Shown one piece after another: positions 6,172 to 62,162 of a stretch of 64,000 bases of DNA. The translations under genes and the position numbers were made by a program. This stretch comes from Bacteroidota bacterium. Its GTDB lineage: Bacteria; Bacteroidota; Ignavibacteria; Palsa-1295. The stretch is taken from contig JAUZNX010000001.1 of assembly GCA_030706745.1 (NCBI GenBank), positions 1 to 64,000 on the forward strand. The letters are read 5' to 3'. How positions within the stretch are numbered: position 1 is the stretch's first letter; every line of letters starts with the position of its first letter. The notes beneath the pieces were generated by a model. The model saw only the letters and a list, made by a program, of their open reading frames with translations, did no database searches and was not told where the DNA came from.

Positions 6172-9100
6172 CTACTCCTTTTCAATCACGAACTTACGGA
6201 CGACGGTGAAGCCGCCGATTTGAATCCGTGCGAAGTATGTCCCTTCGGCCAATGTGGCTGTTGGGATCGGAAGCGTATGATCGCCCTTCGGCATCGTGCC
6301 GTGCGCAAGCTGCGCAACTTGCTTGCCGCTCAGATCGAGCAGATCGACTGTCGCATCCGCATTCACAAGCGAAGTGAATTGCAGCGTCGCAGAGCCATCG
6401 CCAGACTTGTGGGCCGGATTCGGAATGACTTGAATATTGGTGACAGTACTCAAATTACCCTGATTCGATTTCAAGATGATCGAATCATTGCAGTTCAATT
6501 CCAACTGTACCGGTATCTGATCTCCGTTACTCAAGGCCGAGGCCGTGCATCGTGCGAAATTCACATCATTCGGATTGAACGAGGCCGGACCAATCGAAAC
6601 GGACGTCTTATCTGTATCCGGAATCGCCGCAGTCATCGAAACCGTAGCAATTACATCACCAGGATTAATCGGTGCTGTTGGTTGCATTACAAAGACAAGC
6701 GAATCATTGGAGCCGTCAACTGGCTGGCCAGATCCGTTCTTCCAATTTGAGCCAGGAGCAATACCAGCAAGAGTCAGTAAATTCGTGTTATACTTCAAGT
6801 CAATTTTGAAGTCAGTTACACCGACTGAAGATGGGATCTGACTCCCCTGCGCGGTAATAACAAAACGCTTGATGGCATTTGTCGCTGAACTATGTGGCGA
6901 GATCAACGCTCCATCCGGCGATGAAAGTGCAAGCTGCACATTATAGTGCGAACCCGTGACGTTTGTCTGAATCGGGATTGTGATCGGCGTTCCCGGGCTG
7001 CCATCTTGCTTCGTGTAGGTGATGACGACGCTCGTTGTTCCGCCGCCTGCCGCGAGATCCGGATTGAAGCTCACGACAAACTTGAGAGTCTCACCTGTAT
7101 TGACTACCTGCCCGGTCCCCGGAGGAAGCACTGTCAGGCTATAACCACCTCCAGCCGGATTTAGAGTGGCCGTGTTGAACGTCGCCGAACCACTTAATAC
7201 CGTGATCGACATGGTGTCGAGCAACACGATACAACGTAGTGTTGAGACATCGGTTTTGCCCGCGGTGTCGATTCTGAGTGCCGTTCCTGTGCTGCACGGC
7301 TGATACGGTATATTGTACGGCACCGTGAAGCTGGTATCGCCGAAGACATTGATTTGTCCGGAGATAAGTCCCGCGGTTTGTGTCGGCGTGGGTGGCGCAA
7401 AGTGCGCTGTGAAGCAGAATGTCCCGCCGGGCGGGATCATCGCTGGAAAGCTACCCGAGACTGTGAGATGAGCGGAGCTTTGGACGGCACTATCGATCTT
7501 AAGCGGAGCGCCGCAGCTCGCCGTGTTCACAATGCAGATCGTGGTATCCCAGGTACTGCCGCATGGAATCGAATCCTGCTTCTGAATCGAGGATATCGTC
7601 GCGCTTTTCTGAGCAGGGATGACATTGGCGCACCATGTAATCGTGTCATTGACACCAAATACCGGAGGCGTCGCACTGGTAATAAACAATGAGATCGTAC
7701 CACAAATTTGGCCGGTCTCGCCTGGCTGCGGCACGAAGCGAAGATGAAGTGGGATGGTAGTATCCGGCTTGAGAATATCACCCACTTGCGGACTCACCAA
7801 AATGGCTCTTCCAGAGAGGAAGTTGATTGATGCAATCTTCTCGATTGCATTACATCCGGTGTTTTGAATCGAATCCCATACATCGACAGAATCACATCCA
7901 AGCCGTATGTTGCCGAGCGTATTCGAAAATGGAGTGATTGAGGCGTTGACACTTGGGCATGCCGTGCCACTGAAAGTATACTGAACTACTGAAGAGTCAG
8001 AGCCGTGGCGGTAGGTGACTGTGACCGAGCCATTAGCTGGGTTCTGAGTAGCGCCGAACGGCCATACGACAATAATTGTGTCCTTAGCACCCGGCAGAAG
8101 AGAGTCGCCAACCACTGGATGTCGGATTACTGAATAGCCGCCGAGCGTTATGTTCTCGCTGTATCCACTAACGCGTACTCCGAAATCACAGGGATTCGCA
8201 ATCTTGATAGGGAAGAAGATCGTATCTCTGTTACATGGCGAGATACAACCGAACGGTATGTTCGTCGGACCCGCCGGCTTAAGAGTAATCGGCTGGAGAA
8301 TAGTGTATTCAATCGGCGTTCGCGACATTATTCCAGTGCCGTCGGACATCGTATCGATCCACATGATCGTATCTCGATAAGTGCCAGGCTTTGTGCTGAG
8401 TAAGTGAACCTTAAGTTTTAGGACCGATTGATGACCCGGCGGTGGTGGTGGCGGATACACCGTGTCGGGCAATTGTGGGAGATCGATCCGGAAATTGGGG
8501 TCGTTTTGATTTGCAAGCTGGATGTTTGAGATGTTTACTGGCAGGCAAGTCGTGTCAAAGTAATAGACCGCCGTATCATTGAGGGCATGCCGGACGCAAT
8601 CGAACGTATCCCGCAGAACAAAACCGCGAGTGTAAGGTGGGATGATACTTCCCGTGTCTTCGTAAGTGATGTAGAAAGTCTTATCAGGAAGACCATTTAC
8701 ATGGACCGTGATCTGCAAATTGAATGTATTCGGCTTCGTTGCCAGAGCATGAATATGGATTGCTTGCGAGCCGCCATGGCCTGGCAATAAAAGTTGCCCT
8801 GATGGAAGGGTTACCGAGAATGCACCGTCGATCTGAGGGGTCGTTATGCTCTGAATTGTAAGATCGGAACAAGTGGTATTATACAATATGAGATCAGTGT
8901 CCACCTGTTGGCACGATTTCCCATAAATGACTACGGCCTTTTGGGTCGAGAAATTGGCTGTGTACGTGGCTGGCGCACCGTTACCGATAACCTGGATAGG
9001 AGTATCGATCGTGGCCCCGTTATTCTGAATGATCAGATGGGCGATGACGGTATCGGGATTTGGTCCATTCGGTGTGTACTGAATATGGGCCTGATCCGGT

Positions 9101-10479
9101 CCGCAGAATGCATGTGGCAATGGTGGTCCCGGCCACATCGCCCCACTGCTATTCGAGCCAACGGCAAATTTACTCGTATCTGCTGCGACCCCAGAAATGT
9201 GCTGAATCGAATCAAAAAGGAGTGTTGCGTTGCCACAATTACATCCGAACAGCTGAATGACAGTATCAGACGTGAAACATCCGGAATGCGCAAAGTTAAC
9301 GGCGTTAGGGTAAATATGGATAGGATGCGGCGTCGGGCGTTGAGCCGACTGCAACAATCGTGTTCCATCAAATGCCCAGATGGAATCGGAACCGACATAG
9401 AAGCGCAGTTCGAGTGGGGTCAGCGGTCCACCACTCATCGGCTGCCAGGTTCCTCCATCATCGATCGAGTAAATAATTCCGTTTCCGGAATTGTCCGCAG
9501 CGACAATACAGCAAGGATCCCCGCCCATTGTTTCGGTCAGTTCGTCGGTCGTCTGCAAAAAGCCTGAGTTTGCGCGCCAGGTATTGCCGTTATCGGATGA
9601 CGTGTAAATGCTGCTCTGCTGAGGCACCGTCCGCTGATAATTGGTTGAAGCGAAAAATGCTTTGGTACCTTTAAGCGCGACAGGCTGCATGCTGCTCACG
9701 TTCATGGGAATTTGTTGCCAAGTAACTCCTCCATCGTGCGAAGCAAGCCATTTAGGATCGCTAAATGGATCTAACGGACTCGCGCCGACGCATGGGTTAA
9801 CTGGCCCACCCTCGGTGGCAAGCACGATGTCCGTTCCATTCCATGACGCGAAGCCAGTATAATAGCACCAAGCGGCAAGATTTTCGGCTGGATTGGGCGG
9901 CTTGGTGACGTTTATGAGGCTCCAATCCGTGCCATGGTTTGTCGAGACAAAAGCACCCGTCATCCCGGAAGTACCAATATCATCGATGCCACCACTCGAG
10001 CAGTACAATCGCTGGTTGTTCCAATTGTAGAAGAGCCCACGCACTTCTGGAGGCGCATTTGTGAGGAAATTCCAGGTCGCTCCGCCATCGGTGGTCTTGA
10101 GAACGGCCGAAACAAGCGGCAAAGAATAGAACGTGGGTGCCGCACCATAGATCGAGGCGTAGCCCGTGAGCGTATCCTCGAATGAAAAATCGCTGATCCA
10201 GCCATCAGTCCAGTTCGTAGGAACCGTCGCCACGGTCCAGGCCCCGGTCGAGTTACAGTACTGGATGCCTTGCGGCCCCCCCACGAGGCCATGATGGAAC
10301 GTAGCCATTGGAAGCGGTGAAGGCTCGCGTGCGTTTTCGGCCTGCAGGAATTTCACGCACGTAATATTGAATGGCGCGGTAATCTTACCACTCCATTGCG
10401 CGAGAGCGTCCTGAGAGGTCGCGAATCCGACGGATGCGAGAAGGATGACGGAGAGAAGTGTGGCTCGTACTTTACTCAT
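6172..10479 (-). CDS. Giant secreted YCF48 / choice-of-anchor-D / cohesin-like protein with T9SS sorting domain
   Basis: This 1435-residue protein starts with a signal peptide (about 1-27, ending DALAQ). Residues about 60-370 hold YCF48/BNR-like repeats (KTTDGGATW, TSSDNGNTW, SIDDGGTWQ), which usually form a beta-propeller. A long series of immunoglobulin-like choice-of-anchor-D-type modules follows to about 1130. A cohesin-like module comes next (about 1150-1310, with DFKIDLKYNTNLL and PGDVIATVSM). The final about 80 residues (VIPNPAHKSGDGSATLQF ... EGTYFARIQIGG) are a T9SS sorting domain. The cohesin-like module may bind a partner protein; that is inference. Promoter and terminator are both visible, so it is probably transcribed alone. 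Confidence 0.85.
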   Translation of the reverse strand: MSKVRATLLSVILLASVGFATSQDALAQWSGKITAPFNITCVKFLQAENAREPSPLPMATFHHGLVGGPQGIQYCNSTGAWTVATVPTNWTDGWISDFSFEDTLTGYASIYGAAPTFYSLPLVSAVLKTTDGGATWNFLTNAPPEVRGLFYNWNNQRLYCSSGGIDDIGTSGMTGAFVSTNHGTDWSLINVTKPPNPAENLAAWCYYTGFASWNGTDIVLATEGGPVNPCVGASPLDPFSDPKWLASHDGGVTWQQIPMNVSSMQPVALKGTKAFFASTNYQRTVPQQSSIYTSSDNGNTWRANSGFLQTTDELTETMGGDPCCIVAADNSGNGIIYSIDDGGTWQPMSGGPLTPLELRFYVGSDSIWAFDGTRLLQSAQRPTPHPIHIYPNAVNFAHSGCFTSDTVIQLFGCNCGNATLLFDSIQHISGVAADTSKFAVGSNSSGAMWPGPPLPHAFCGPDQAHIQYTPNGPNPDTVIAHLIIQNNGATIDTPIQVIGNGAPATYTANFSTQKAVVIYGKSCQQVDTDLILYNTTCSDLTIQSITTPQIDGAFSVTLPSGQLLLPGHGGSQAIHIHALATKPNTFNLQITVHVNGLPDKTFYITYEDTGSIIPPYTRGFVLRDTFDCVRHALNDTAVYYFDTTCLPVNISNIQLANQNDPNFRIDLPQLPDTVYPPPPPPGHQSVLKLKVHLLSTKPGTYRDTIMWIDTMSDGTGIMSRTPIEYTILQPITLKPAGPTNIPFGCISPCNRDTIFFPIKIANPCDFGVRVSGYSENITLGGYSVIRHPVVGDSLLPGAKDTIIVVWPFGATQNPANGSVTVTYRHGSDSSVVQYTFSGTACPSVNASITPFSNTLGNIRLGCDSVDVWDSIQNTGCNAIEKIASINFLSGRAILVSPQVGDILKPDTTIPLHLRFVPQPGETGQICGTISLFITSATPPVFGVNDTITWCANVIPAQKSATISSIQKQDSIPCGSTWDTTICIVNTASCGAPLKIDSAVQSSAHLTVSGSFPAMIPPGGTFCFTAHFAPPTPTQTAGLISGQINVFGDTSFTVPYNIPYQPCSTGTALRIDTAGKTDVSTLRCIVLLDTMSITVLSGSATFNTATLNPAGGGYSLTVLPPGTGQVVNTGETLKFVVSFNPDLAAGGGTTSVVITYTKQDGSPGTPITIPIQTNVTGSHYNVQLALSSPDGALISPHSSATNAIKRFVITAQGSQIPSSVGVTDFKIDLKYNTNLLTLAGIAPGSNWKNGSGQPVDGSNDSLVFVMQPTAPINPGDVIATVSMTAAIPDTDKTSVSIGPASFNPNDVNFARCTASALSNGDQIPVQLELNCNDSIILKSNQGNLSTVTNIQVIPNPAHKSGDGSATLQFTSLVNADATVDLLDLSGKQVAQLAHGTMPKGDHTLPIPTATLAEGTYFARIQIGGFTVVRKFVIEKE

Positions 10480-10578
10480 GGGGACGAGTGAAAGTGGATG
10501 GTTACAAAATGATAATAAAAAACAACGCGGACCGGGCGAGAATAAATCGCATGATTGCTCATGCCCTCACCGGAGTTA

Positions 10579-10612
10579 CAAAAATACAGCGAAAATCGCC
10601 GGAGCCTACAAA
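10579..10612 (-). promoter_or_regulatory. Bacteroidota-type promoter for the 6172-10479 gene
   Basis: Minus strand TTTG (10609-10612) and TATTTTTG (10579-10586) are 22 bp apart, close to TTTG-N19-21-TAnnTTTG. It lies about 100 bp upstream of the start at 10479 and partly overlaps the dxs terminator. Confidence 0.5.
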
Positions 10613-10632
10613 AGCGGGGTTTTGGCTCCGGC
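10598..10632 (-). terminator. Probable dxs terminator
   Basis: The 9-bp arms GCCGGAGCC / GGCTCCGGC enclose a second short stem (CAAAA/TTTTG). The hairpin begins 11 bases after the dxs stop and is followed on the minus strand by GATTTT. Confidence 0.6.
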
Positions 10633-10643
10633 GGCAGGTTTGT

Positions 10644-12644
10644 TTAGACCCCAGTCAGAATGGGTGTTTGCACCAGGGCGCGCACGCGCTCACGGATACC
10701 CTCGCGAGTGAGTCCAATGCTTGCACTCAGGGCCTGGGGCGCTCCATGCTCGATAAACTGGTCTGGAATGCCGATTATTAAGGGATGAGGGATAACGGAT
10801 GAAGGATGAAGGATGTTGCGGGATGCGAAATATTCCGCCACTGCGCTGCCAAAACCGCCAGCTATCGTATTTTCTTCAACGGTCACAATATGCTTGAAGC
10901 GCGCGGCGAGTCCTTCGAGCAAGGCGGCATCGAGCGGCTTGACGAACCGGGCATTGGCCACGGCGACCGAAATGCCATCGACAGCCAGGTCCTCGGCGGC
11001 TTTGAGCGCCTCATAAAGGATAGGTCCAACCCCGACAACCACGACATCTGAGCCATCGCGCAGCATTTCGCCCTGACCGATCGGGATGCGGCGGAAGCCT
11101 TTGGCTGCCAGCGGCACACCGACTCCGGCGCCACGGGGATAGCGAATAGCGATGGGACCCTTGCAGTTGATAGTGGATAGTGGATAGAGGGGAGTGGAGT
11201 GGGTTTCCGCAATCTCTCCACTATCCACTGCCAACTCTCCACTACCCGATGTTGCGGTAAACAGCATATCGCGCAGTTCCTGCTCGTCCTTTGGGACCAT
11301 GATGGTCATATTCGGGATGAGGCGGAGATAGGAAAGATCGAACGCGCCATGGTGCGTCGGGCCGTCGGCGCCCACAAGTCCGGCGCGGTCTAACGCGAAG
11401 ACCACGGGCAGCTTTTGGAGCGCCACATCGTGGACGATCTGGTCGAACGCGCGCTGAAGGAATGTGGAGTAGATCGCGCAGACTGGTGTAAACCCCTGAG
11501 TCGCCATGCCAGCGGCGAATGTCACGGCATGTTGCTCGGCGATTCCAACATCGAAGAACCGGTCGGGCAACTCCTTCTGGAGAATATTCAGGCCTGTGCC
11601 GTCCGGCATCGCGGCCGTGATGCCGACGACGAGTGGATTCGCCTTACAGATTTCAAGCAAGGCGTTGCCGAAGACTTTGGTATATTCGGGTGGTGTAGGG
11701 GCCGCAATAGGCTTGACGATCGCTGCGCCAGTGATCTTATCGAACGCCCCAGAGGCTGCATGGTACCGCTGCACGTGCGACTCGGCGGGCGCGTAGCCCT
11801 TGCCCTTCTCGGTGATGACATGCAACAACAGAGGCCCGGTCTGGTCCTTTAAAAATTCCAGCGTTTCGACCAGTTTGACCACATTGTGGCCGTTGATCGG
11901 ACCAAAATACTTGAAGCCGAGCGCCTCGAACATCATGCCGGGCGTCATGACGGCCTTCATTCCGTCCACGAGTTTGGAGCCGGCCAGCCGCAGACGGTCG
12001 TGGCCTTCGAGTTTATCCCAAACCTGGTCCTTGAACTTGCGGACTTTGGGGTTCGTGATGAGCGAATTAAAGTACTCATGCAACGCCCAGACGTTCGGTG
12101 CGATGGACATCCGATTGTCATTCAGGATGACAAGAATGTCCTTTCTGAGCATGCCACAGTTGTTGAGCGCCTCATATGCGATCCCGCCGGTCATGGAGCC
12201 ATCACCGATCACGGCGGCGACTTTGTAGGTATCACCGGCAAAATCGCGGGCGGTGGCAATACCGAGCGCCGCGCTGATCGAGGTCGAAGCGTGACCTGCG
12301 CCAAAAACATCGTAATCGCTTTCTTCGCGCTTGAGGAACGGCGCGAGGCCACCTGTCTTGCGGATCGTGCTCAGACGGTCCTTGCGGCCGGTAAGAATTT
12401 TGTGCGGATATGCTTGATGTCCAACATCCCAGATGACCTTGTCTGTGGGCGTGTTCAGCGCATAGTGGAGCGCCACGCTGAGTTCGACAACGCCGAGTCC
12501 GGCGCCGAAATGTCCGCCGGTCTGCGAAATGGTGTCGATGAGGTACTCGCGAACGTCATTGGAGACGCCCTTCAGGTCGGTTACCTTCAGCTTGCGGAGA
12601 TCGGCGGGAGTGTCGATTTGATCGAGATAAGGGTAATCTGGCAT
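10644..12644 (-). CDS. dxs: 1-deoxy-D-xylulose-5-phosphate synthase with two heptamer-repeat insertions
   Basis: This enzyme condenses pyruvate and glyceraldehyde 3-phosphate using thiamine diphosphate, the first step of the MEP isoprenoid pathway. The 666 residues show the TPP-binding GDGSMTGGIAYEALNN...NDN motif (about 150-180), the transketolase-type central domain with AEQHAVTFAAGMA, and IAIRYPRGAG. The family is usually about 620-640 residues. The extra length lies in two places: 28 residues between MLFTAT and CKGPIAIRYPRG, encoded exactly by a heptamer array at 11166-11249, and about 7 residues before GIPDQFIEHG, from the array at 10781-10815. Both are in frame and sit at loop positions. 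The gene follows xseB by 4 bases, probably in one operon with pabA. ispF, later in the same pathway, is at 63471. Confidence 0.97.
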   Translation of the reverse strand: MPDYPYLDQIDTPADLRKLKVTDLKGVSNDVREYLIDTISQTGGHFGAGLGVVELSVALHYALNTPTDKVIWDVGHQAYPHKILTGRKDRLSTIRKTGGLAPFLKREESDYDVFGAGHASTSISAALGIATARDFAGDTYKVAAVIGDGSMTGGIAYEALNNCGMLRKDILVILNDNRMSIAPNVWALHEYFNSLITNPKVRKFKDQVWDKLEGHDRLRLAGSKLVDGMKAVMTPGMMFEALGFKYFGPINGHNVVKLVETLEFLKDQTGPLLLHVITEKGKGYAPAESHVQRYHAASGAFDKITGAAIVKPIAAPTPPEYTKVFGNALLEICKANPLVVGITAAMPDGTGLNILQKELPDRFFDVGIAEQHAVTFAAGMATQGFTPVCAIYSTFLQRAFDQIVHDVALQKLPVVFALDRAGLVGADGPTHHGAFDLSYLRLIPNMTIMVPKDEQELRDMLFTATSGSGELAVDSGEIAETHSTPLYPLSTINCKGPIAIRYPRGAGVGVPLAAKGFRRIPIGQGEMLRDGSDVVVVGVGPILYEALKAAEDLAVDGISVAVANARFVKPLDAALLEGLAARFKHIVTVEENTIAGGFGSAVAEYFASRNILHPSSVIPHPLIIGIPDQFIEHGAPQALSASIGLTREGIRERVRALVQTPILTGV
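10781..10815. repeat. Heptamer array inside the dxs 3' coding region
   Basis: Five consecutive 7-mers read AGGGATG, AGGGATA, ACGGATG, AAGGATG and AAGGATG. They encode the ILHPSSVIPHP-like segment of Dxs on the minus strand. Compared with other Dxs proteins this stretch appears about 6-7 residues (three heptamers) too long. Confidence 0.85.
11166..11249. repeat. 84-bp heptamer inverted-repeat array inserted in frame in dxs
   Basis: Period 7 is kept without a break for 12 units. The left arm has GTTGATA, GTGGATA, GTGGATA; the right arm has TCTCCAC, TATCCAC, TGCCAAC, TCTCCAC, making a potential hairpin. Because 84 is divisible by both 7 and 3, the insertion adds exactly 28 codons without a frameshift or stop. 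Confidence 0.92.
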
Positions 12645-12648
12645 AAGC

Positions 12649-12954
12649 TCAGAACAAATCCTCCGAATCCTCTAAATCGTTCTCTTCGAGGTCAGACTCT
12701 ATAATAGTGGATGATCGGATGCTCTCTTCATGGATCGCGGCAAGCTTCTCGACTCGAAGTTCTGCTTCATCCAGTGTCGTTTTCAGCCGCTCCGAGAGCG
12801 TCATCGCCTCTTCATAGAGCGCGAGCATCTCGCCAAGCGGGACATTGCCTTGTTCAAGCTTGTCGACGAGCGTTGCCAGCCGGTCGAAATCCTGCTCGAA
12901 GTGCACCAACGGTGCGCTCGCGATGGGTTGGGGGTGTTGTTTCTGTCGCGCCAC
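12649..12954 (-). CDS. xseB: Exodeoxyribonuclease VII small subunit
   Basis: XseB binds the large subunit XseA to form exonuclease VII, which degrades single-stranded DNA. The 101 residues contain the family core FEQDFDRLATLVDKLEQGN..LGEMLALYEEAM..SERLKTTLDEAELRVEKL (about 19-70), predicted as two helices of a coiled coil. A basic N-terminus and an acidic C-terminal tail (ESDLEENDLEDSEDLF) are lineage-specific extras. It lies 38 bases after pabA and 4 bases before dxs. xseA is not in this window. Confidence 0.9.
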   Translation of the reverse strand: MARQKQHPQPIASAPLVHFEQDFDRLATLVDKLEQGNVPLGEMLALYEEAMTLSERLKTTLDEAELRVEKLAAIHEESIRSSTIIESDLEENDLEDSEDLF

Positions 12955-12992
12955 TATTTTTGTAACAACCGGCCCTCGCGCTTCGTCCCGGC

Positions 12993-13562
12993 TTAACTCG
13001 CTAGCCAGTTCTGAAGCATCGCGATGCCATGCTCGGTCATATAGGACTCGGGATGAAACTGCACCCCGCGAATATCCAGGTGCTTGTGCCTGAGCGCCAT
13101 GACGACTCCATCCGGACCGCTCGCGGTAACCTCCAGATCGTCGGGTAATGATGCTCGGTCCACCGCCCAGGAATGATAGAGGCCTACAAATGTCTCGGCA
13201 GATGCTCGTTCGAACAGAATGTCATCCTGTTCCCGCATGATCTTGACACGCCGGCCATGCCGCGGCATCGGCAGATTGTAGAGCGACCCGCCAAAGAACT
13301 CTGCGATGGCCTGCATCCCGAGGCACACACCGAGGATCGGCTTCGATGCGGCATAGGCTTTAAGCAGATCGAACAGCTCGGGAAACTCGCGCGGCAAGCC
13401 GGGACCCGGCGAGAGGATGATCTTATCGAAGCGACCAATCTCAACCGAGCCAATGTTGTGGTGCGCCACAATCGTACACTCGCAACGCGCATTCTCGCGA
13501 ATGATCTGCGCGAGATTGTGCGTAAACGAATCGCGATTATCGACTAATAATACTTGTGACAT
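12993..13562 (-). CDS. pabA: Aminodeoxychorismate (or anthranilate) synthase glutamine amidotransferase subunit
   Basis: This class I glutamine amidotransferase hydrolyses glutamine and passes ammonia to the chorismate-binding subunit. Landmarks are the N-terminal VLLVDNRDSFTHNL, the oxyanion region SPGPGLP, the nucleophile Cys in GVCLGMQA, and the His/Glu pair in GVQFHPES. I chose the ATG at 13562 (MSQVLLVDN) because homologues start there. It is divergent from and overlaps pabB by 7 bases, and pabC is next to that, so a role in p-aminobenzoate (folate) synthesis is favoured over tryptophan synthesis. No trp genes are nearby. Confidence 0.9.
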   Translation of the reverse strand: MSQVLLVDNRDSFTHNLAQIIRENARCECTIVAHHNIGSVEIGRFDKIILSPGPGLPREFPELFDLLKAYAASKPILGVCLGMQAIAEFFGGSLYNLPMPRHGRRVKIMREQDDILFERASAETFVGLYHSWAVDRASLPDDLEVTASGPDGVVMALRHKHLDIRGVQFHPESYMTEHGIAMLQNWLAS

Positions 13563-14560
13563 TCTCTGGCGGACTTGCAAAATGGCTCGTGCCTCAGGCC
13601 GAGGTCTTCGCTCGTATGAACGAATGGGGACGCGAGTCCATGCCGTTTCTTTTCGTTATCGATTATGCGATTCGCCAGCCACTCCTCATTCCGCTTTCGG
13701 AAGTGAAGCCGGAAGCGGTGCTGTTCAAGATTCCCAATCGAACGAACGCCAACGAGACTTCCGATCATGCTCCCACACTTGGTTTTTCGAAGTTACCGGA
13801 ATCCTTCTCGGTCTATCAACAAAAATTCGCGCGAGCGATGGCGCACATCCAGCGCGGCGATACCTACTTGCTGAACTTGACGTGCAGGACACCAGTCGCG
13901 CTGGAATCCAACTTGCGATCGATCTTTCATGATGTGAATGCCGAATATAAGATTCTGCTTGAGGACTCGATTCTCGTTTTTTCACCCGAGTGTTTCGTGA
14001 AAATCAAGGATCAACGCATCGCTTCCTGTCCGATGAAGGGCACCATTGACGCGGCCTTACCCAATGCCGAGAACAGAATTCTGACCGACCCGAAAGAGAC
14101 CGCCGAGCACTATACCATCGTCGATCTAATTCGCAATGATTTGAGCCAGATTGCCAGCAGCGTCGAGGTCGATTCATTCCGTCATATTACTCGCATCGAG
14201 ACAAACCAGAAGACACTTCTGCAGGTGAGTTCAACAATCAGCGGCGCACTTGCAGGCGATTGGCCTGCACGCTTGGGCGATATTTTTCAAGCGCTGCTGC
14301 CCGCCGGTTCGGTCACGGGAGCGCCGAAGCAGAAGACGTGCGAGATCATCGATGAGATCGAGGGTTACGATCGCGGATACTATTCCGGAATCTTCGGTGT
14401 ATTCGATGGTAACGAAGTGGATAGCGCGGTGATGATTCGCTTCATCGAGAAGTATGATGCTGGCTTTGTATTCAAGAGCGGCGGTGGCATTACAATGTAT
14501 AGCGATGCAGACGCTGAGTATCAAGAAATGATTGATAAAGTCTATGTCCCTCTTGTTTGA
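13556..14560 (+). CDS. pabB: Aminodeoxychorismate synthase component I
   Basis: The chorismate-binding subunit makes 4-amino-4-deoxychorismate with PabA. The 334 residues (GTG start) are of the short PabB type, with MPFLFVIDY near the N-terminus and the chorismate-binding core from about 90: RGDTYLLNLT, CPMKGTIDA, DLIRNDLSQIA, GSVTGAPKQKTCEIIDEIEGYDRGYYSGIFG and the closing SGGGITMYSDADAEYQE. The start overlaps the divergent pabA start, leaving no normal promoter spacer between them. Its end overlaps pabC, indicating translational coupling. Confidence 0.93.
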   Translation: MTFSGGLAKWLVPQAEVFARMNEWGRESMPFLFVIDYAIRQPLLIPLSEVKPEAVLFKIPNRTNANETSDHAPTLGFSKLPESFSVYQQKFARAMAHIQRGDTYLLNLTCRTPVALESNLRSIFHDVNAEYKILLEDSILVFSPECFVKIKDQRIASCPMKGTIDAALPNAENRILTDPKETAEHYTIVDLIRNDLSQIASSVEVDSFRHITRIETNQKTLLQVSSTISGALAGDWPARLGDIFQALLPAGSVTGAPKQKTCEIIDEIEGYDRGYYSGIFGVFDGNEVDSAVMIRFIEKYDAGFVFKSGGGITMYSDADAEYQEMIDKVYVPLV

Positions 14561-15170
14561 AGCGATCCGTGTGCAGGATGGCGCGTTTCGCTTGCTCGAA
14601 CTGCACGCGGAACGGATGAACGCCTCGCGCAAGGCGCTCCTCGGACTCGATGACCCGATCAGCTTGCGAGGTCTCACCATACCCGACGAATGCAAGTCCG
14701 GTCGCTTCAAATGTCGCATCGAGTATGGCCGCGAGATCGAGCGCGTCACGTTCGAGGGATACATTGTCGCACTGCCCGAGAGATTTCAGTTGGTACGCGA
14801 TGACGCAATCCAGTACTCCCACAAGCTCACCGACCGGCAACGATTGCTCGCCCTCATGGACTCCGCCGCGCCGGACGGCATCATCATCGTAAAGCACGGC
14901 TTCATCACTGATGCGTATCATGCCAATATCGCATTCTCTGATGGCGAGCGATGGGTCACGCCGGACACTCCGCTGCTCGCAGGACGCATGCGCGAGTGGC
15001 TCTTGCGAACAGGACAGATTTCTCCTGCAACGATTCGCGACGTTGATCTGGCAAACTTCAAGTCGTTCAAACTCATCAATGCGATGCTCGGATTCGAGGA
15101 GTCGCCAGAGTTTGGGATTGACAGGATTGTCACGCGGCCCTCTATTCTGTCCCATGGACACGCCATATAA
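14544..15170 (+). CDS. pabC: Aminodeoxychorismate lyase-like class IV PLP enzyme
   Basis: PabC releases pyruvate from aminodeoxychorismate to give p-aminobenzoate. The protein (208 residues from MSLLFEAIRVQDG) has the class IV aminotransferase pattern: a candidate PLP lysine in YSHKLTDRQ (about 92), the conserved DAYHANIAFSDG...TPDTPLLAG stretch, and the C-terminal KLINAMLGFEESPEF. It matches the short Bacteroidota form. It overlaps the end of pabB by 17 bases. A short diverged copy of its 3' end lies at 15427. Confidence 0.88.
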   Translation: MSLLFEAIRVQDGAFRLLELHAERMNASRKALLGLDDPISLRGLTIPDECKSGRFKCRIEYGREIERVTFEGYIVALPERFQLVRDDAIQYSHKLTDRQRLLALMDSAAPDGIIIVKHGFITDAYHANIAFSDGERWVTPDTPLLAGRMREWLLRTGQISPATIRDVDLANFKSFKLINAMLGFEESPEFGIDRIVTRPSILSHGHAI

Positions 15171-15270
15171 TTATATATTGTGTTTTGGGAAATTTTTCAT
15201 GAAACAGTTACGGTGTCACCCGGCAAGCCATGACTGCATTTTCTGCGAATTTAGCCACCTGACTCACCGC

Positions 15271-15305
15271 AATTCATATTTCATACTTCATATTTCATAT
15301 TTCGA
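15271..15305. repeat. Intergenic heptamer array
   Basis: Five 7-mers: AATTCAT, ATTTCAT, ACTTCAT, ATTTCAT, ATTTCGA. The preceding CACCGC and the AATTC edge resemble the array in front of the MFS gene (60939-60950, TTACCGCAATTC). Confidence 0.85.
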
Positions 15306-16230
15306 TGAGGCCCCCCTCCACCTAATATAACGTGGTTCGATACCTCCGGCATCGCATATTGTTGATGAATTTTGAAAATTGTTTTGTCCCGGCGCATGAG
15401 AGTTAGTGGCACCCGCCGCGCCCATCCTCGGTTTCCAGGAGTCGCTGGAGTTTGGGACTCGAGAGGATTGTGTGGGAAATACAGCATTGAGTGAAGTGGC
15501 TTCCGGTATGGCAGTTGTCCGGTTCTCGCTTCGTGAACGTATCCGATTTGAAAGTGGAGATTACTCTGTGGCTCGTGGCCGGATTGCAGGAGCGCCCAGC
15601 CCCCTTCGAGAAAGAGTCCGTAATAATTCCAACCAAGTCCTAAGCCCAGCGAACTCCAGCTAGGGGGAGTCCCCTCTCCGAACAAATTTGGCGCAGCAGT
15701 TGAACTCGCGAAGGCGCAGATCTCGAAAAGAGTGGTGCTATTGCGCGACACGACATACGAGAGTGTTCCCTGCGCCGCTTCGATAATCATGTACTTACCT
15801 GCCTCCTCCGCGGGAAGCGCGCCAAGTCCAACGCCCGATAACCGATCCGGGCAGCATATCCGCCAGCAATAAAATTGAGCCCTCCGGGCGTGCCGATCGT
15901 ACCGCCAAAAACGATACTCCCTTTGAGAAATTTGTCGCTTCGGTGCAGAGAGGGGGCAGGCGGTGGATACTCGATCCGAAGTATCCGGTCCCGCGAAATC
16001 AGCAACTTGTCTCCGTAGGACTGTAGAATCACGAACGTCGCGCTATCGGCTAGGAGCGTGCCTTCGTATCGCGAGCTATCGGTCGTGAGCACATGGACCC
16101 ACTGCGCGGGAGCGGCAATCGTAACGACCATTAGCGCCGCCGCGAGCAAGAAGAACTGTACAACTCGTTTCTTATTCAAGCTCAATCCCTCCCAAAGTCT
16201 CAACGGCGGTGCCGAACGCTTTCGTGCCAT
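15281..16230 (-). pseudogene. Frameshifted secreted or outer-membrane protein gene, unrecognised
   Basis: The first part (16230 to 15787, 147 residues) has a long N-terminus, a hydrophobic signal segment (FFLLAAALMVVTIAAPAQW), and a small strand-rich module (SSRYEGTLLADSATFVILQ...DKLLISRDRILRIEYPPP). It then reaches a glycine-rich stretch (GGTIGTPGGLNFIAGGYAARIGYR) and stops. The natural continuation is in another frame: LSGVGLGALPAEEAGKYM, then SSLGLGLGWNYYGLFLEGGWALL, which looks like membrane beta-strands. A one-base shift near 15815-15830 would join them. The part downstream of about 15475 lacks protein-like character. It is either a real decay event or a sequencing error. The function is unknown. 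Confidence 0.6.
15427..15472 (+). repeat. Diverged duplicate of the pabC 3' end
   Basis: About 37 of 44 bases match 15087-15130, with one 1-base gap. Read on the plus strand it gives LGFQESLEFG against LGFEESPEFG near the PabC C-terminus. The copy is only this short and is out of context. It lies within the poorly supported tail of the minus-strand pseudogene here. Confidence 0.6.
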
Positions 16231-18602: not shown

Positions 18603-18663
18603 CTCGGTGCCGTTCTCTATCCTTCTATTTTGTGCAAACGCATGGTCTATCTCCTCTATCGTA

Positions 18664-18683
18664 CCGTGGGTTGAAACCCACGG
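18664..18683. repeat. CCGTGGGTTGAAACCCACGG palindromic repeat
   Basis: A near-perfect inverted repeat (CCGTGGGTT / AACCCACGG) is followed by a second small hairpin, GCTCCTAACGGAGC (18697-18710). Such hairpins are a common intergenic repeat type in many bacterial phyla. Here it replaces the expected 5' end of the antitoxin gene. Confidence 0.7.
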
Positions 18684-18721
18684 CTACAACTATTTCGCTC
18701 CTAACGGAGCTACAAAGCTAT

Positions 18722-20198: not shown

Positions 20199-20203
20199 CC
20201 CGG

Positions 20204-20238
20204 AAATAGTGGATAGTGGAAAGTGGATAACGGATAGT
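20204..20238. repeat. Heptamer array upstream of the DUF4921 gene
   Basis: Five 7-mers: AAATAGT, GGATAGT, GGAAAGT, GGATAAC, GGATAGT. The array ends 5 bases before the GTG start on the minus strand. Confidence 0.85.
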
Positions 20239-35923: not shown

Positions 35924-35979
35924 GACACAGGAATTCGTGGTTCTTCATTTGTCATTCGTCATTCGTCATTCGTAATTGA
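35910..35979. repeat. Heptamer array between pgl and dnaE
   Basis: Ten in-phase 7-mers: GAATTAA, GAATTGA, GACACAG, GAATTCG, TGGTTCT, TCATTTG, TCATTCG (three times), TAATTGA. Left and right ends are inverted copies. The pgl stop lies in unit two and the dnaE GTG is 4 bases past the last unit, so the array fills the whole intergenic gap. Confidence 0.93.
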
Positions 35980-35983
35980 AACA

Positions 35984-46517: not shown

Positions 46518-46608
46518 GTACGAATTCGGGGAATTAAGAGTTAAGAATTACGAATTATGCGTTATGTGATCGTAACTCTTCATTCGTTATTCGCAATTCG
46601 TAATTGAC
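46518..46608. repeat. Heptamer inverted-repeat array filling the divergent kdsB promoter region
   Basis: Thirteen in-phase 7-mers, among them AATTAAG, AGTTAAG, AATTACG, AATTATG (left) and CATTCGT, TATTCGC, AATTCGT, AATTGAC (right). The arms are inverted copies. The last unit contains the TTG start of kdsB, directly preceded by an in-frame TAA. On the other side the lipoprotein ATG is 9 bases away. Confidence 0.93.
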
Positions 46609-52234: not shown

Positions 52235-52253
52235 GATTCAAGATATTCGAGGT

Positions 52254-52317
52254 GGGGTTAATGGCATTAACCCGTTTCTGTCATCGTACTCGCCAGTGGG
52301 TTAATGCCATTAACCCC
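52254..52317. repeat. 20-bp inverted repeat forming the end of hisC
   Basis: GGGGTTAATGGCATTAACCC (52254-52273) and GGGTTAATGCCATTAACCCC (52298-52317) are exact reverse complements around 24 bases. The hisC stop lies in the left arm, and the right arm encodes NGINPL of its C-terminus. A role as terminator is possible. Confidence 0.85.
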
Positions 52318-53415
52318 TACCTGAGCATGGAGAACTTCCTTCATTGCAGCAACTGCTCGTTCGTTCTCTTGCTGGGTGCCGATGGAAATACGGACGCAGT
52401 CCGGCAGTCCGAAGCCGCCAAGCCATCTCGTGATCACGCCGCGTCGCTCCAGCTCGTCCGTTAATCGCTTCGCATCTTCCTCTGTACCAAGCGGCAGACA
52501 AAAGAAATTCGCGGCGGTCTCGATGTAGGCAATGCCCATTTCTTCGAATGCCTTCGCAAGATAGACCTTGCCCGCGCGGTTCGTCGCGATAGTCCGCGCG
52601 AGGAATTCGTCGTCATCGAGCGCCGCAATGCCCGCGGCCTGCGCGAGCGTGCCTGGCTCGAATGGAAGCTTCACCTTCAGCATCGGTTCGATCAGTTCGC
52701 GCGGACCGCTGCCAAAGCCGATGCGAATTCCCGCGAGTCCATGTGACTTGGAGAACGTCCGAAGGGTTACGACGTTCGCACGAATATCGGTGAGAAGCGA
52801 ATAATAATCAGGTGTATCTCCCGCCGCAAAATCATAGTATGCTTCATCGTGCAGAATGATGACATTGGGCGGGACCTTCTCGTAGAAGGATTCGAATTCC
52901 GCACGCCCAACAATCGTACCGGTGGGATTATTCGGGTTTGCGATATAGATCAGGCGCGTCTTTGGCGTGATCGCGTCCGCAAGCGCATCGAGATCGTAGC
53001 CATAATTCCGCATCGGTGTGCGCACGAGCTTCATGCCGATCGCACTCGCCAGAACATAGAACCCACCGAACGAGCCTTCACTGGTCACCGCCTCATCGCC
53101 AGCCGAAAAAAACGTGCGCATGAAGGTCGTCATCACGCCTTCGCTTCCGCTTCCAGCGATGAGCTGATCGACCGAGAGCCCAACTTTCGCCGCGATGGCC
53201 TCGCGAAGGGATTTCCCGCCATTGGGATATTGATGGATCCCGGCGACGGCCAATCGGACAGCCTCCATTGCCTTTGGCGAGGGACCGAGCGGGTTCTCAT
53301 TCGAAGCGAGTTTAATCACATCCGTAAGGCCGTACTCGGCGATAACGTCCGCGATCGGCTTTCCGGGCTTATAGGGCCGGAGCGAGGCAATATGTTGTGG
53401 TAACGAAATCTTCAT
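52267..53415 (-). CDS. hisC: Histidinol-phosphate aminotransferase
   Basis: This PLP enzyme of histidine synthesis (382 residues) shows IKLASNENPLGPSP, YIANPNNPTGTIV, ILHDEAYYDF and the PLP lysine in TFSKSHGLAGIRIGFG, then CVRISIGTQQENERAV. The last about 15 residues (NGINPLASTMTETG) extend past the usual end and are encoded by an inverted repeat. No other his genes are near, so a broader aromatic transaminase role is possible. Confidence 0.93.
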   Translation of the reverse strand: MKISLPQHIASLRPYKPGKPIADVIAEYGLTDVIKLASNENPLGPSPKAMEAVRLAVAGIHQYPNGGKSLREAIAAKVGLSVDQLIAGSGSEGVMTTFMRTFFSAGDEAVTSEGSFGGFYVLASAIGMKLVRTPMRNYGYDLDALADAITPKTRLIYIANPNNPTGTIVGRAEFESFYEKVPPNVIILHDEAYYDFAAGDTPDYYSLLTDIRANVVTLRTFSKSHGLAGIRIGFGSGPRELIEPMLKVKLPFEPGTLAQAAGIAALDDDEFLARTIATNRAGKVYLAKAFEEMGIAYIETAANFFCLPLGTEEDAKRLTDELERRGVITRWLGGFGLPDCVRISIGTQQENERAVAAMKEVLHAQVGVNGINPLASTMTETG

Positions 53416-60881: not shown

Positions 60882-60980
60882 ATGACAAATTACAGATGAC
60901 GAATGACAAATGAAGTGTGTTTGATGAGAGCAATGGATTACCGCAATTCGTCACTCGTCATTCGTCATTCGTAATTGTTT
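60876..60980. repeat. 105-bp heptamer inverted-repeat array between the DUF4412 and MFS genes
   Basis: Fifteen in-phase 7-mers: GAATTGA, ATGACAA, ATTACAG, ATGACGA, ATGACAA on the left; AATTCGT, CACTCGT, CATTCGT (twice), AATTGTT on the right, as inverted copies. The left end contains the upstream stop; the right end contains the downstream TTG start, preceded in frame by TAA. Confidence 0.95.
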
Positions 60981-62162
60981 AAGAACAAGGCTCTCCTGCC
61001 GATCGCGGTCGTCATTTTTATCGACCTGCTCGGCTTCACGATCATCCTTCCTCTGCTGCCGTTTTACGCGACCTCGTTTGGGGCATCGCCGGAAACGATT
61101 GGCTATCTCGTTGCGAGCTATTCGGTCTGCCAGTTTTTTGCAGGGCCGGTGCTGGGTGGATTGAGCGACCGCTTTGGGCGGCGACCGTTGCTGATCTACT
61201 CGCAGCTTGGCTCGATGGCAGGCTTTATCCTGCTGGCTTTTGCGAACTCGCTGCCGATTCTGTTTCTATCGAGAATCATCGATGGGATTAGTGGTGGCAA
61301 CGTAACGATTGCCTCGGCTTATATCGCAGACGTCACAGAACCAAAGGAGCGCTCCGGCGCCATGGCGATCATCGGCATCGGGTTTGGGATGGGCTTCGTC
61401 GTCGGGATGCCGCTTGGCGGAATGCTGGCGCAGCATTATGGCTATGCAGTCCCGGCGTTTGTGGCAGCGGGATTCGCACTATCAAGCACGCTTCTCAGCA
61501 CGTTTTATCTGAAGGAGCACCATCATGTTCGTGACGATAGCGTGATTTTCGGCTGGCACTACTACACGAGGATCTTCGAGTACCTTCGCATTCCGAATCT
61601 TCGAACGTTGCTCCTCACGTTTCTTTTCTTCGTCCTGCCGTTTTCGCTGTTTATGTCGATGTTCTCATTGTTCGCGATGCTGAAGCTGCAGTTTACTCCG
61701 GAGGATATTGGTCTCTTCATGGGATTCGTCGGCGTGCTTGGCGTACTGTGGCAGGGCGGTGTAATCCGACCATTGGTCCGGAAGCTGGGCGAACTGACCT
61801 GTCTTCGGATTGGACTTGCAGCAATGGTCGTTGGCTTGCTGGGGCTTGCCGTTGCGCAGACGATACCCGTCTTAGCCAGTGTCGCGGTTTTATTATCCTT
61901 TGGAACGGGCATTACGCGGCCCACGATCTCAAGCCTCATCACACAATATGCGCCACCAACACGCAAGGGCGGGGCGCTCGGAGTTTCTTCATCGCTCGAA
62001 AGTTTTTCGAGAGCGATCACACCGATCCTGGGTGGCTGGATCATCGGCGGGCTGCATCCGAATTACATTGGTTACATCGGTGCGCTGATGGCGGCTGTTG
62101 CGGTATTTTTCTCGATGCGGGTGCATTACGATAGCCGTGATCTGGCGAAGGCTACTCCTTAA
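60975..62162 (+). CDS. MFS transporter (TetA-like drug:H+ antiporter family)
   Basis: This 395-residue integral membrane protein has about 12 transmembrane helices. Landmarks are VVIFIDLLGFTIILPLLPFYA, the motif-A loop GGLSDRFGRRPLL between helices 2 and 3, and SRIIDGISGGNVTIASAYIADVT. The fold and motif place it with TetA/multidrug MFS exporters; the substrate is unknown. The start is the TTG in the heptamer array (TAA-TTG-TTT). Its 3' end overlaps the convergent YCF48 gene by 11 bases. Confidence 0.93.
   Translation: MFKNKALLPIAVVIFIDLLGFTIILPLLPFYATSFGASPETIGYLVASYSVCQFFAGPVLGGLSDRFGRRPLLIYSQLGSMAGFILLAFANSLPILFLSRIIDGISGGNVTIASAYIADVTEPKERSGAMAIIGIGFGMGFVVGMPLGGMLAQHYGYAVPAFVAAGFALSSTLLSTFYLKEHHHVRDDSVIFGWHYYTRIFEYLRIPNLRTLLLTFLFFVLPFSLFMSMFSLFAMLKLQFTPEDIGLFMGFVGVLGVLWQGGVIRPLVRKLGELTCLRIGLAAMVVGLLGLAVAQTIPVLASVAVLLSFGTGITRPTISSLITQYAPPTRKGGALGVSSSLESFSRAITPILGGWIIGGLHPNYIGYIGALMAAVAVFFSMRVHYDSRDLAKATP

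Follow-up and report, generated by a model that had tools for sequence, protein, structure and literature searches.

How does a run of tandem heptanucleotides come to lie in the middle of an essential gene, and what allows it to stay there? The question is raised by dxs of a Bacteroidota bacterium of the class Ignavibacteria (here termed G000), located at 10644..12644 on the minus strand of the window, i.e., the 64,000-nucleotide stretch of contig JAUZNX010000001.1 that was analyzed. The gene encodes a 1-deoxy-D-xylulose-5-phosphate synthase of 666 aa, as judged by its Pfam domains (DXP_synthase_N, Transket_pyr, and Transketolase_C) and by matches to solved DXS structures (best match 2o1s, E 6e-177), and its reading frame is intact and complete. 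Heptamer repeats occupy 11163-11249 of this gene. The original prediction described them as an exact 84-base insertion of 12 heptamers that adds 28 residues and keeps the frame by virtue of its unit count.

Architecture of the insert and its place in Dxs

Read on the plus strand, the insert consists of GCAGTTGATAGTGGATAGTGGATAGAGGGGAGTGGAG, a short loop, and then TCTCTCCACTATCCACTGCCAACTCTCCACTA. Arm 1 (11163..11200, plus strand) belongs to the GTGGATA family and encodes STPLYPLSTINC in the dxs frame, the hairpin loop (11201..11212) is unrelated to the loops of other family members, and arm 2 (11213..11245, minus strand), an inverted copy of arm 1, encodes GSGELAVDSGE. The segment is thus an inverted repeat of about five GTGGATA-like units, a loop of ca. 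13 nt, and about five TATCCAC units. Its 84 bases can be divided into 12 heptamers, as predicted, but about two of these are non-repeat loop. Since the second half is the inverted complement of the first, we regard the segment as a palindromic element rather than as twelve direct units, and folding of 11150-11265 yields a single hairpin with paired arms (z -2.3 for DNA, z -2.7 for RNA). A second heptamer array, a single arm of the GGATGAA family absent from the original prediction, lies within the C-terminal domain of the same gene (10779..10819, minus strand). An Rfam search of 9000-16000 matched no family.

Comparison with relatives revises the size of the insertion. Between ELRDML and GP, the window's Dxs has 34 residues and uninserted relatives have 8, and the linker in LFTAT-GPIAIRYPRG comprises 30 residues versus 4, a net gain of 26 codons or 78 nt in place of the 28 residues and exact 84 bases initially proposed. 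As 78 is not a multiple of 7, the unit count does not explain how the frame was kept, and the inverted orientation of the arms also speaks against this idea. The added residues follow Transket_pyr (end 466) and precede Transketolase_C (start 523), between positions equivalent to residues 464 and 469 of E. coli DXS 2o1s. Whether they form a surface loop had been left to structure modelling: in an AlphaFold2 model, residues 469-492 have pLDDT values <50 and no secondary structure, flanked by a helix (454-465) and a strand (498-501). A disordered loop is therefore predicted, for which the model is modest evidence as its mean pLDDT is only 72.6.

On the purine strand, GTGGATA, GGATGAA, AATGACG, and AAATATG generate stops in all frames, and on the complementary pyrimidine strand none. 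Of the complete elements examined, 12 are located outside genes or at their edges, and in these none of the six frames is open, whereas the elements within dxs, carA, and a terminase-like gene can be read through in the frame of the host. In dxs, both forward-arm positions expected to read GGA TAG read GGA GAG, i.e., the would-be TAG stops are GAG. Only 5 of 37 sampled elements lie well inside a gene, although coding sequence accounts for ~89% under a simple gene model. Together, this low count and the frame and stop pattern mark coding insertions as rare survivors of a frame-and-stop filter, which makes a rule of multiples of three units superfluous: tolerance in coding sequence depends on a net length divisible by three and a stop-free frame.

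Other genes carry related segments. In carA (G000:C3:22138-22205), an in-frame AATTACG-family hairpin separates the N-terminal domain from the glutamine amidotransferase domain; the terminase-like phage gene (G000:C1:442620-442695) contains an in-frame AATGACG hairpin; and in a T9SS-type protein (C1:447184), a GGATGAA arm is found close to the C-terminus. Many heptamer hairpins also extend over the beginning of the gene that follows, with its start codon within or directly after an arm, as seen for two inverted pairs in the window, one of AATTAAG/AATTACG that abuts a gene start (46529-46605) and one of AATGACG in the intergenic region between two genes (60885-60982). In gltX (C1:331075), a heptamer hairpin seems to have given rise to an N-terminal extension.

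The Dxs linker across the genus

We aligned 30 Dxs proteins from 30 genomes, 7 within the genus, G000 included, and 23 outside it. The insert is absent from all 23 relatives outside the genus, which have a short linker, as in MLYTATE-YKKGPIALRYPRG, and from the congener G004. With its repeat family dispersed elsewhere, this upholds the earlier view of an in-frame insertion in an essential gene. The distance from ELRDML to GP is 32 residues in G001, 40 in G002, 37 in G003, 46 in G005, 11 in G006, and 8 in G004. At this four-residue linker, four of the six congeners have inserts of unrelated sequence, whose net lengths of +24, +29, +32, and +38 codons again argue against a frame maintained by unit number. 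The inserts of G001, G002, and G003 are near-perfect palindromes that resemble REPIN doublets. In G001 and G003 they are GC-rich (CCCCTCCCGCAAGCGGGAGGGG and CCTCTCCCCCAAGGGGGAGAGG, respectively, with inverted partners) and belong to families with low copy numbers in the sampled ~10% of their own genomes. The G002 insert is a doublet of GTAGGGGTTAATGGCATTAACCC, and a member of the same family, GGGGTTAATGGCATTAACCC followed by its inverted copy with a GTAG foot, lies in the window (52250..52325). The G005 insert has no clear palindrome.

Loops of similar length and unrelated sequence in relatives had been named as the observation that would speak against an insertion. They occur inside the genus but not outside it, which suggests that a hot spot was hit by insertions more than once. 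A single loop gained in the Dxs ancestor of the genus, with the present inserts as its drifted descendants, would likewise place inserts at the same four-residue linker in five of seven genus genomes. The inserts, however, defy alignment and stem from different repeat families; three are near-perfect palindromes. Moreover, in a Dxs tree calculated with the insert left out (68% support for the genus node), G000 and G001 are neighbours and yet carry different families, and G004 is empty though nested. We therefore consider one ancestral gain highly improbable. The pattern is most simply read as four or more separate events of insertion or replacement at this linker, which is most likely a recurrent insertion hot spot. 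The second dxs site (10779-10819) also varies, with heptamers in G000, G001, and G003, a decayed form in G004, a REP-type hairpin resembling GACAAGCTAAAGCATGTC instead in G005 and G006, and nothing in G002. At ~77% on the nucleotide level, the relatives are too diverged for setting the ends of the dxs element; neither transposition nor target-site duplication nor within-species polymorphism was seen.

Heptamer arrays and their companion gene

Period-7 arrays are abundant in the genome: 787 kb of G000 contain 42, compared with 1 in a Markov control, 10 arrays of period 9, and 0-2 for each of the other periods from 4 to 13. The pattern GTGGATAGTGGATA (at most one mismatch) occurs 63 times in the genome, its reversed version once. 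Non-coding examples in the window are an AAATATG-family element (15268..15382, minus strand), of which ~112-bp copies are dispersed in G001, a single GTGGATA-family arm (20202..20237, plus strand), and an AATGACG/AATTACG-family arm (35938..35982, minus strand). Inverted arm pairs are common genome-wide and surround unrelated loops; a conserved loop, suggested by a CCGCAAT motif in three window elements, was ruled out on these grounds. Closely flanking heptamer elements were also noted at tRNA genes (G000:C3:132874-133028 and 232811-233054), in one case from two different families.

Some arm pairs enclose a gene. In G000, GTGGATA arms at G000:C4:11524-11551 (plus) and 12028-12041 (minus) surround a PF05635 gene (23S_rRNA_IVP, hereafter S23p; C4:11649-11948, E 9e-27), the other strong PF05635 gene of this genome (C5:26796-27083) lies between inverted GGATGAA arms, and one in G001 (C199:3463-3768) between inverted AAATATG arms. 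The dxs copy itself has no ORF of this type. We scored the inverted similarity of S23p flanks against 1,497 random windows and took the 99th percentile, 26, as threshold. By this measure, with random windows drawn from four congeneric genomes only and differing in composition from some test genomes, 18 of 19 S23p genes in the genus, 23 of 27 elsewhere in the class, and 15 of 15 plasmid loci have inverted flanks above threshold. In genus and class, nearly all of these flanks have period 7, each with its own heptamer, and clear heptamers are seen in 13-14 of the plasmid loci. The latter come from five phyla (Cyanobacteriota, Bacteroidota, Spirochaetota, Chloroflexota, and Bacillota), with hosts assigned to Nostoc, Anabaena, Dolichospermum, Planktothrix, Euhalothece, Gloeocapsa, Pseudanabaena, Leptolyngbya, Bernardetia, Treponema saccharophilum, Chlorohelix, and Monoglobus. 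In the reciprocal direction, ~2.26 Mb yielded four inverted heptamer pairs with a long gap; three of these (two loci) have an S23p gene between their arms, and the fourth consists of two short elements flanking a tRNA. As in MITEs, short gene-less hairpins share their heptamers with the gene-bearing elements. On the Anabaena and Nostoc plasmids (L329, L330), an S23p element with inverted heptamer arms is situated between cas2 and cas1, and in Monoglobus (L335) one lies between hsdS and hsdR.

The more similar two S23p proteins are, the more similar are their heptamers (Mantel r -0.26, 0 of 2000 permutations), and this also holds when the class is compared with plasmids from other groups (r -0.25, 2 of 5000). 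Such a correlation might stem from protein and arms being inherited together as one element, and not from recognition of nucleic acid by the protein. S23p probably resembles the DGR accessory protein Avd in structure. A reverse transcriptase was considered as mover and rejected, with no RVT_1 match in G000, and no transposase was identified for the heptamer element.

A different origin would require no mobile element at all. Heptamer repeats are over-represented in bacteria and unexplained in the literature, where period 7 is favoured among long repeats and replication slippage has been proposed (PMC4679880, PMC4692102); the dxs array might accordingly have arisen in place as a microsatellite with 7 nt as favoured unit, and the differences in unit variants from arm to arm are consistent with this. 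Slippage accounts poorly for inverted pairs around unrelated loops and for dispersed copies that keep one order of unit variants (GGAAAATATGAAATATGAAGTATGAAATATGAAG). In addition, 80 of 109 genus arrays (73%, ~5% expected) have a heptamer identical to one in the genus's S23p arms, a count that takes in a few arrays that are themselves S23p flanks, and the remaining 29 are 1-2 mismatches away. The S23p-free congener G005 has no arrays in the part sampled. An origin by slippage thus appears unlikely.

The REPIN-like doublets found at the same linker in three congeners, one of whose families (that of G002) also occurs in the window, raise another option, in which Y1 (IS200-like) transposases mobilize the heptamer hairpin in trans, the way they do REPs. 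G000 has 7 Y1_Tnp genes, some flanked by GTAG REPs, and REPs within genes have been reported, including different REPs at about the same recB site in two Xanthomonas species (PMC3733652). A GTAG-tagged REP, TTGTAGCCGTGGGTTTCAACCCACGG, is present in the window (18655-18715), with 94-96% copies in G001 and G003; as a similar hairpin flanks a Y1 transposase gene (L061), a separate REP/RAYT system is present. The heptamer arms do not share its hallmarks. They carry no GTAG-tagged hairpin of their own with 20-40 bp per half, being tandem heptamers that pair with each other, and the best-scoring Y1 genes are not flanked by them: across the seven loci, no heptamer array adjoins Y1_Tnp at L061-L065, and at L066/L067 arrays occur only ~0.5-1 kb away. 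In G005, where no PF05635 gene was found, 256 kb contain no period-7 array despite 6 Y1 genes, versus 3-10 arrays per 100 kb in G000-G003. On the evidence of this one genome, S23p is a better candidate than RAYTs for the companion of the arrays. We therefore judge mobilization by Y1 transposases to be doubtful. Copy number is not proportional to the number of S23p genes, since G004 has 6 of these but only 0.7 arrays per 100 kb (140 kb sampled).

Taken together, the dxs segment is probably the MITE-like form of an S23p/heptamer element, lacking the gene and tolerated at a linker of Dxs that is predicted to be disordered. A complete element would consist of a heptamer arm, an S23p (PF05635) gene for a four-helix bundle, and an inverted heptamer arm, with each S23p lineage having its own heptamer and short forms being reduced to the arms and a small loop. 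One such gene-less copy may have entered the four-residue linker between the pyrimidine and C-terminal domains, where three features would let it persist: a net length divisible by three, a frame free of stops, and a disordered loop formed by the ~26 extra residues. From these data we infer that heptamer elements move and that S23p takes part in movement by recognizing its own heptamer; the added loop presumably does little harm to the enzyme and is near-neutral.

Relation to known elements and implications

The closest parallels are the intervening sequences (IVS) of 23S rRNA in Leptospira and Coxiella. These too have a stem of inverted repeats, may contain or lack an S23p/PF05635 ORF, and reside in essential genes at loops that tolerate insertion. 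In Coxiella, the IVS is an inverted-repeat element in which two or three GACAGAT heptamers precede the S23p ORF (PMC4990558). S23p is of unknown function, the Xanthomonas protein forms a pentamer of four-helix bundles, and the Coxiella protein is probably not expressed, which counts against a role for S23p (PMC4990558). The elements described here differ in that their hosts are a protein-coding gene or intergenic DNA, that many heptamer families coexist per genome, and that the dxs insert is apparently translated instead of being excised by RNase III. Located in dxs and not in 23S rRNA, this copy is IVS-like rather than an rRNA IVS.

To our knowledge, Rickettsia palindromic elements (RPEs) have neither heptamer arms nor a full-length copy with S23p, and they further differ in their CGTC tag. 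They are similar in being in-frame palindromic repeats within genes that add a peptide, as cited in PMC3733652. REPIN/REP doublets mobilized by RAYTs share two inverted units, a variable spacer, dispersal, and occasional location in genes (PMC3733652, PMC3116915), and the dxs site itself holds REPIN-like doublets in sister species; they differ in their GTAG-tagged hairpins and in a Y1 transposase rather than S23p as companion gene. Cyanobacterial STRR heptanucleotides and the TAACTGA repeats of Beggiatoaceae resemble the arrays as dispersed, mostly intergenic tandem heptamers in several phyla, but were published for the most part as direct repeats that lack a carrier gene (PMC4679880). The dxs insert departs from a purely direct repeat in its inverted second half, and inverted arms with an S23p gene occur here even on Nostoc and Anabaena plasmids. 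A literature search, with most subscription journals outside its reach, retrieved no paper on a general link between S23p and heptamers.

More broadly, the heptamer repeats of many phyla and the S23p-bearing rRNA IVS might constitute one class of mobile elements, a proposal to which we give about even chances: S23p would recognize its own 7-nt arms and spread gene-bearing and gene-less hairpins, with no known transposase, even into essential coding genes. The interest of this locus rests on the element class more than on the single dxs copy. The latter has the appearance of a selfish element that lacks its gene; complete elements of this kind, which has received little notice, bear a "four-helix bundle" gene known so far mainly from rRNA insertions. 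If true, three puzzles would be joined, i.e., the origin of 23S rRNA IVS, the function of "four-helix bundle protein", a widespread family, and the source of dispersed heptamers in cyanobacteria and other phyla, and binding of S23p to its own heptamer is a testable hypothesis. In sister species, different hairpins have repeatedly struck one linker between domains of an essential enzyme, which also offers a natural experiment on selfish DNA turning into new protein sequence.
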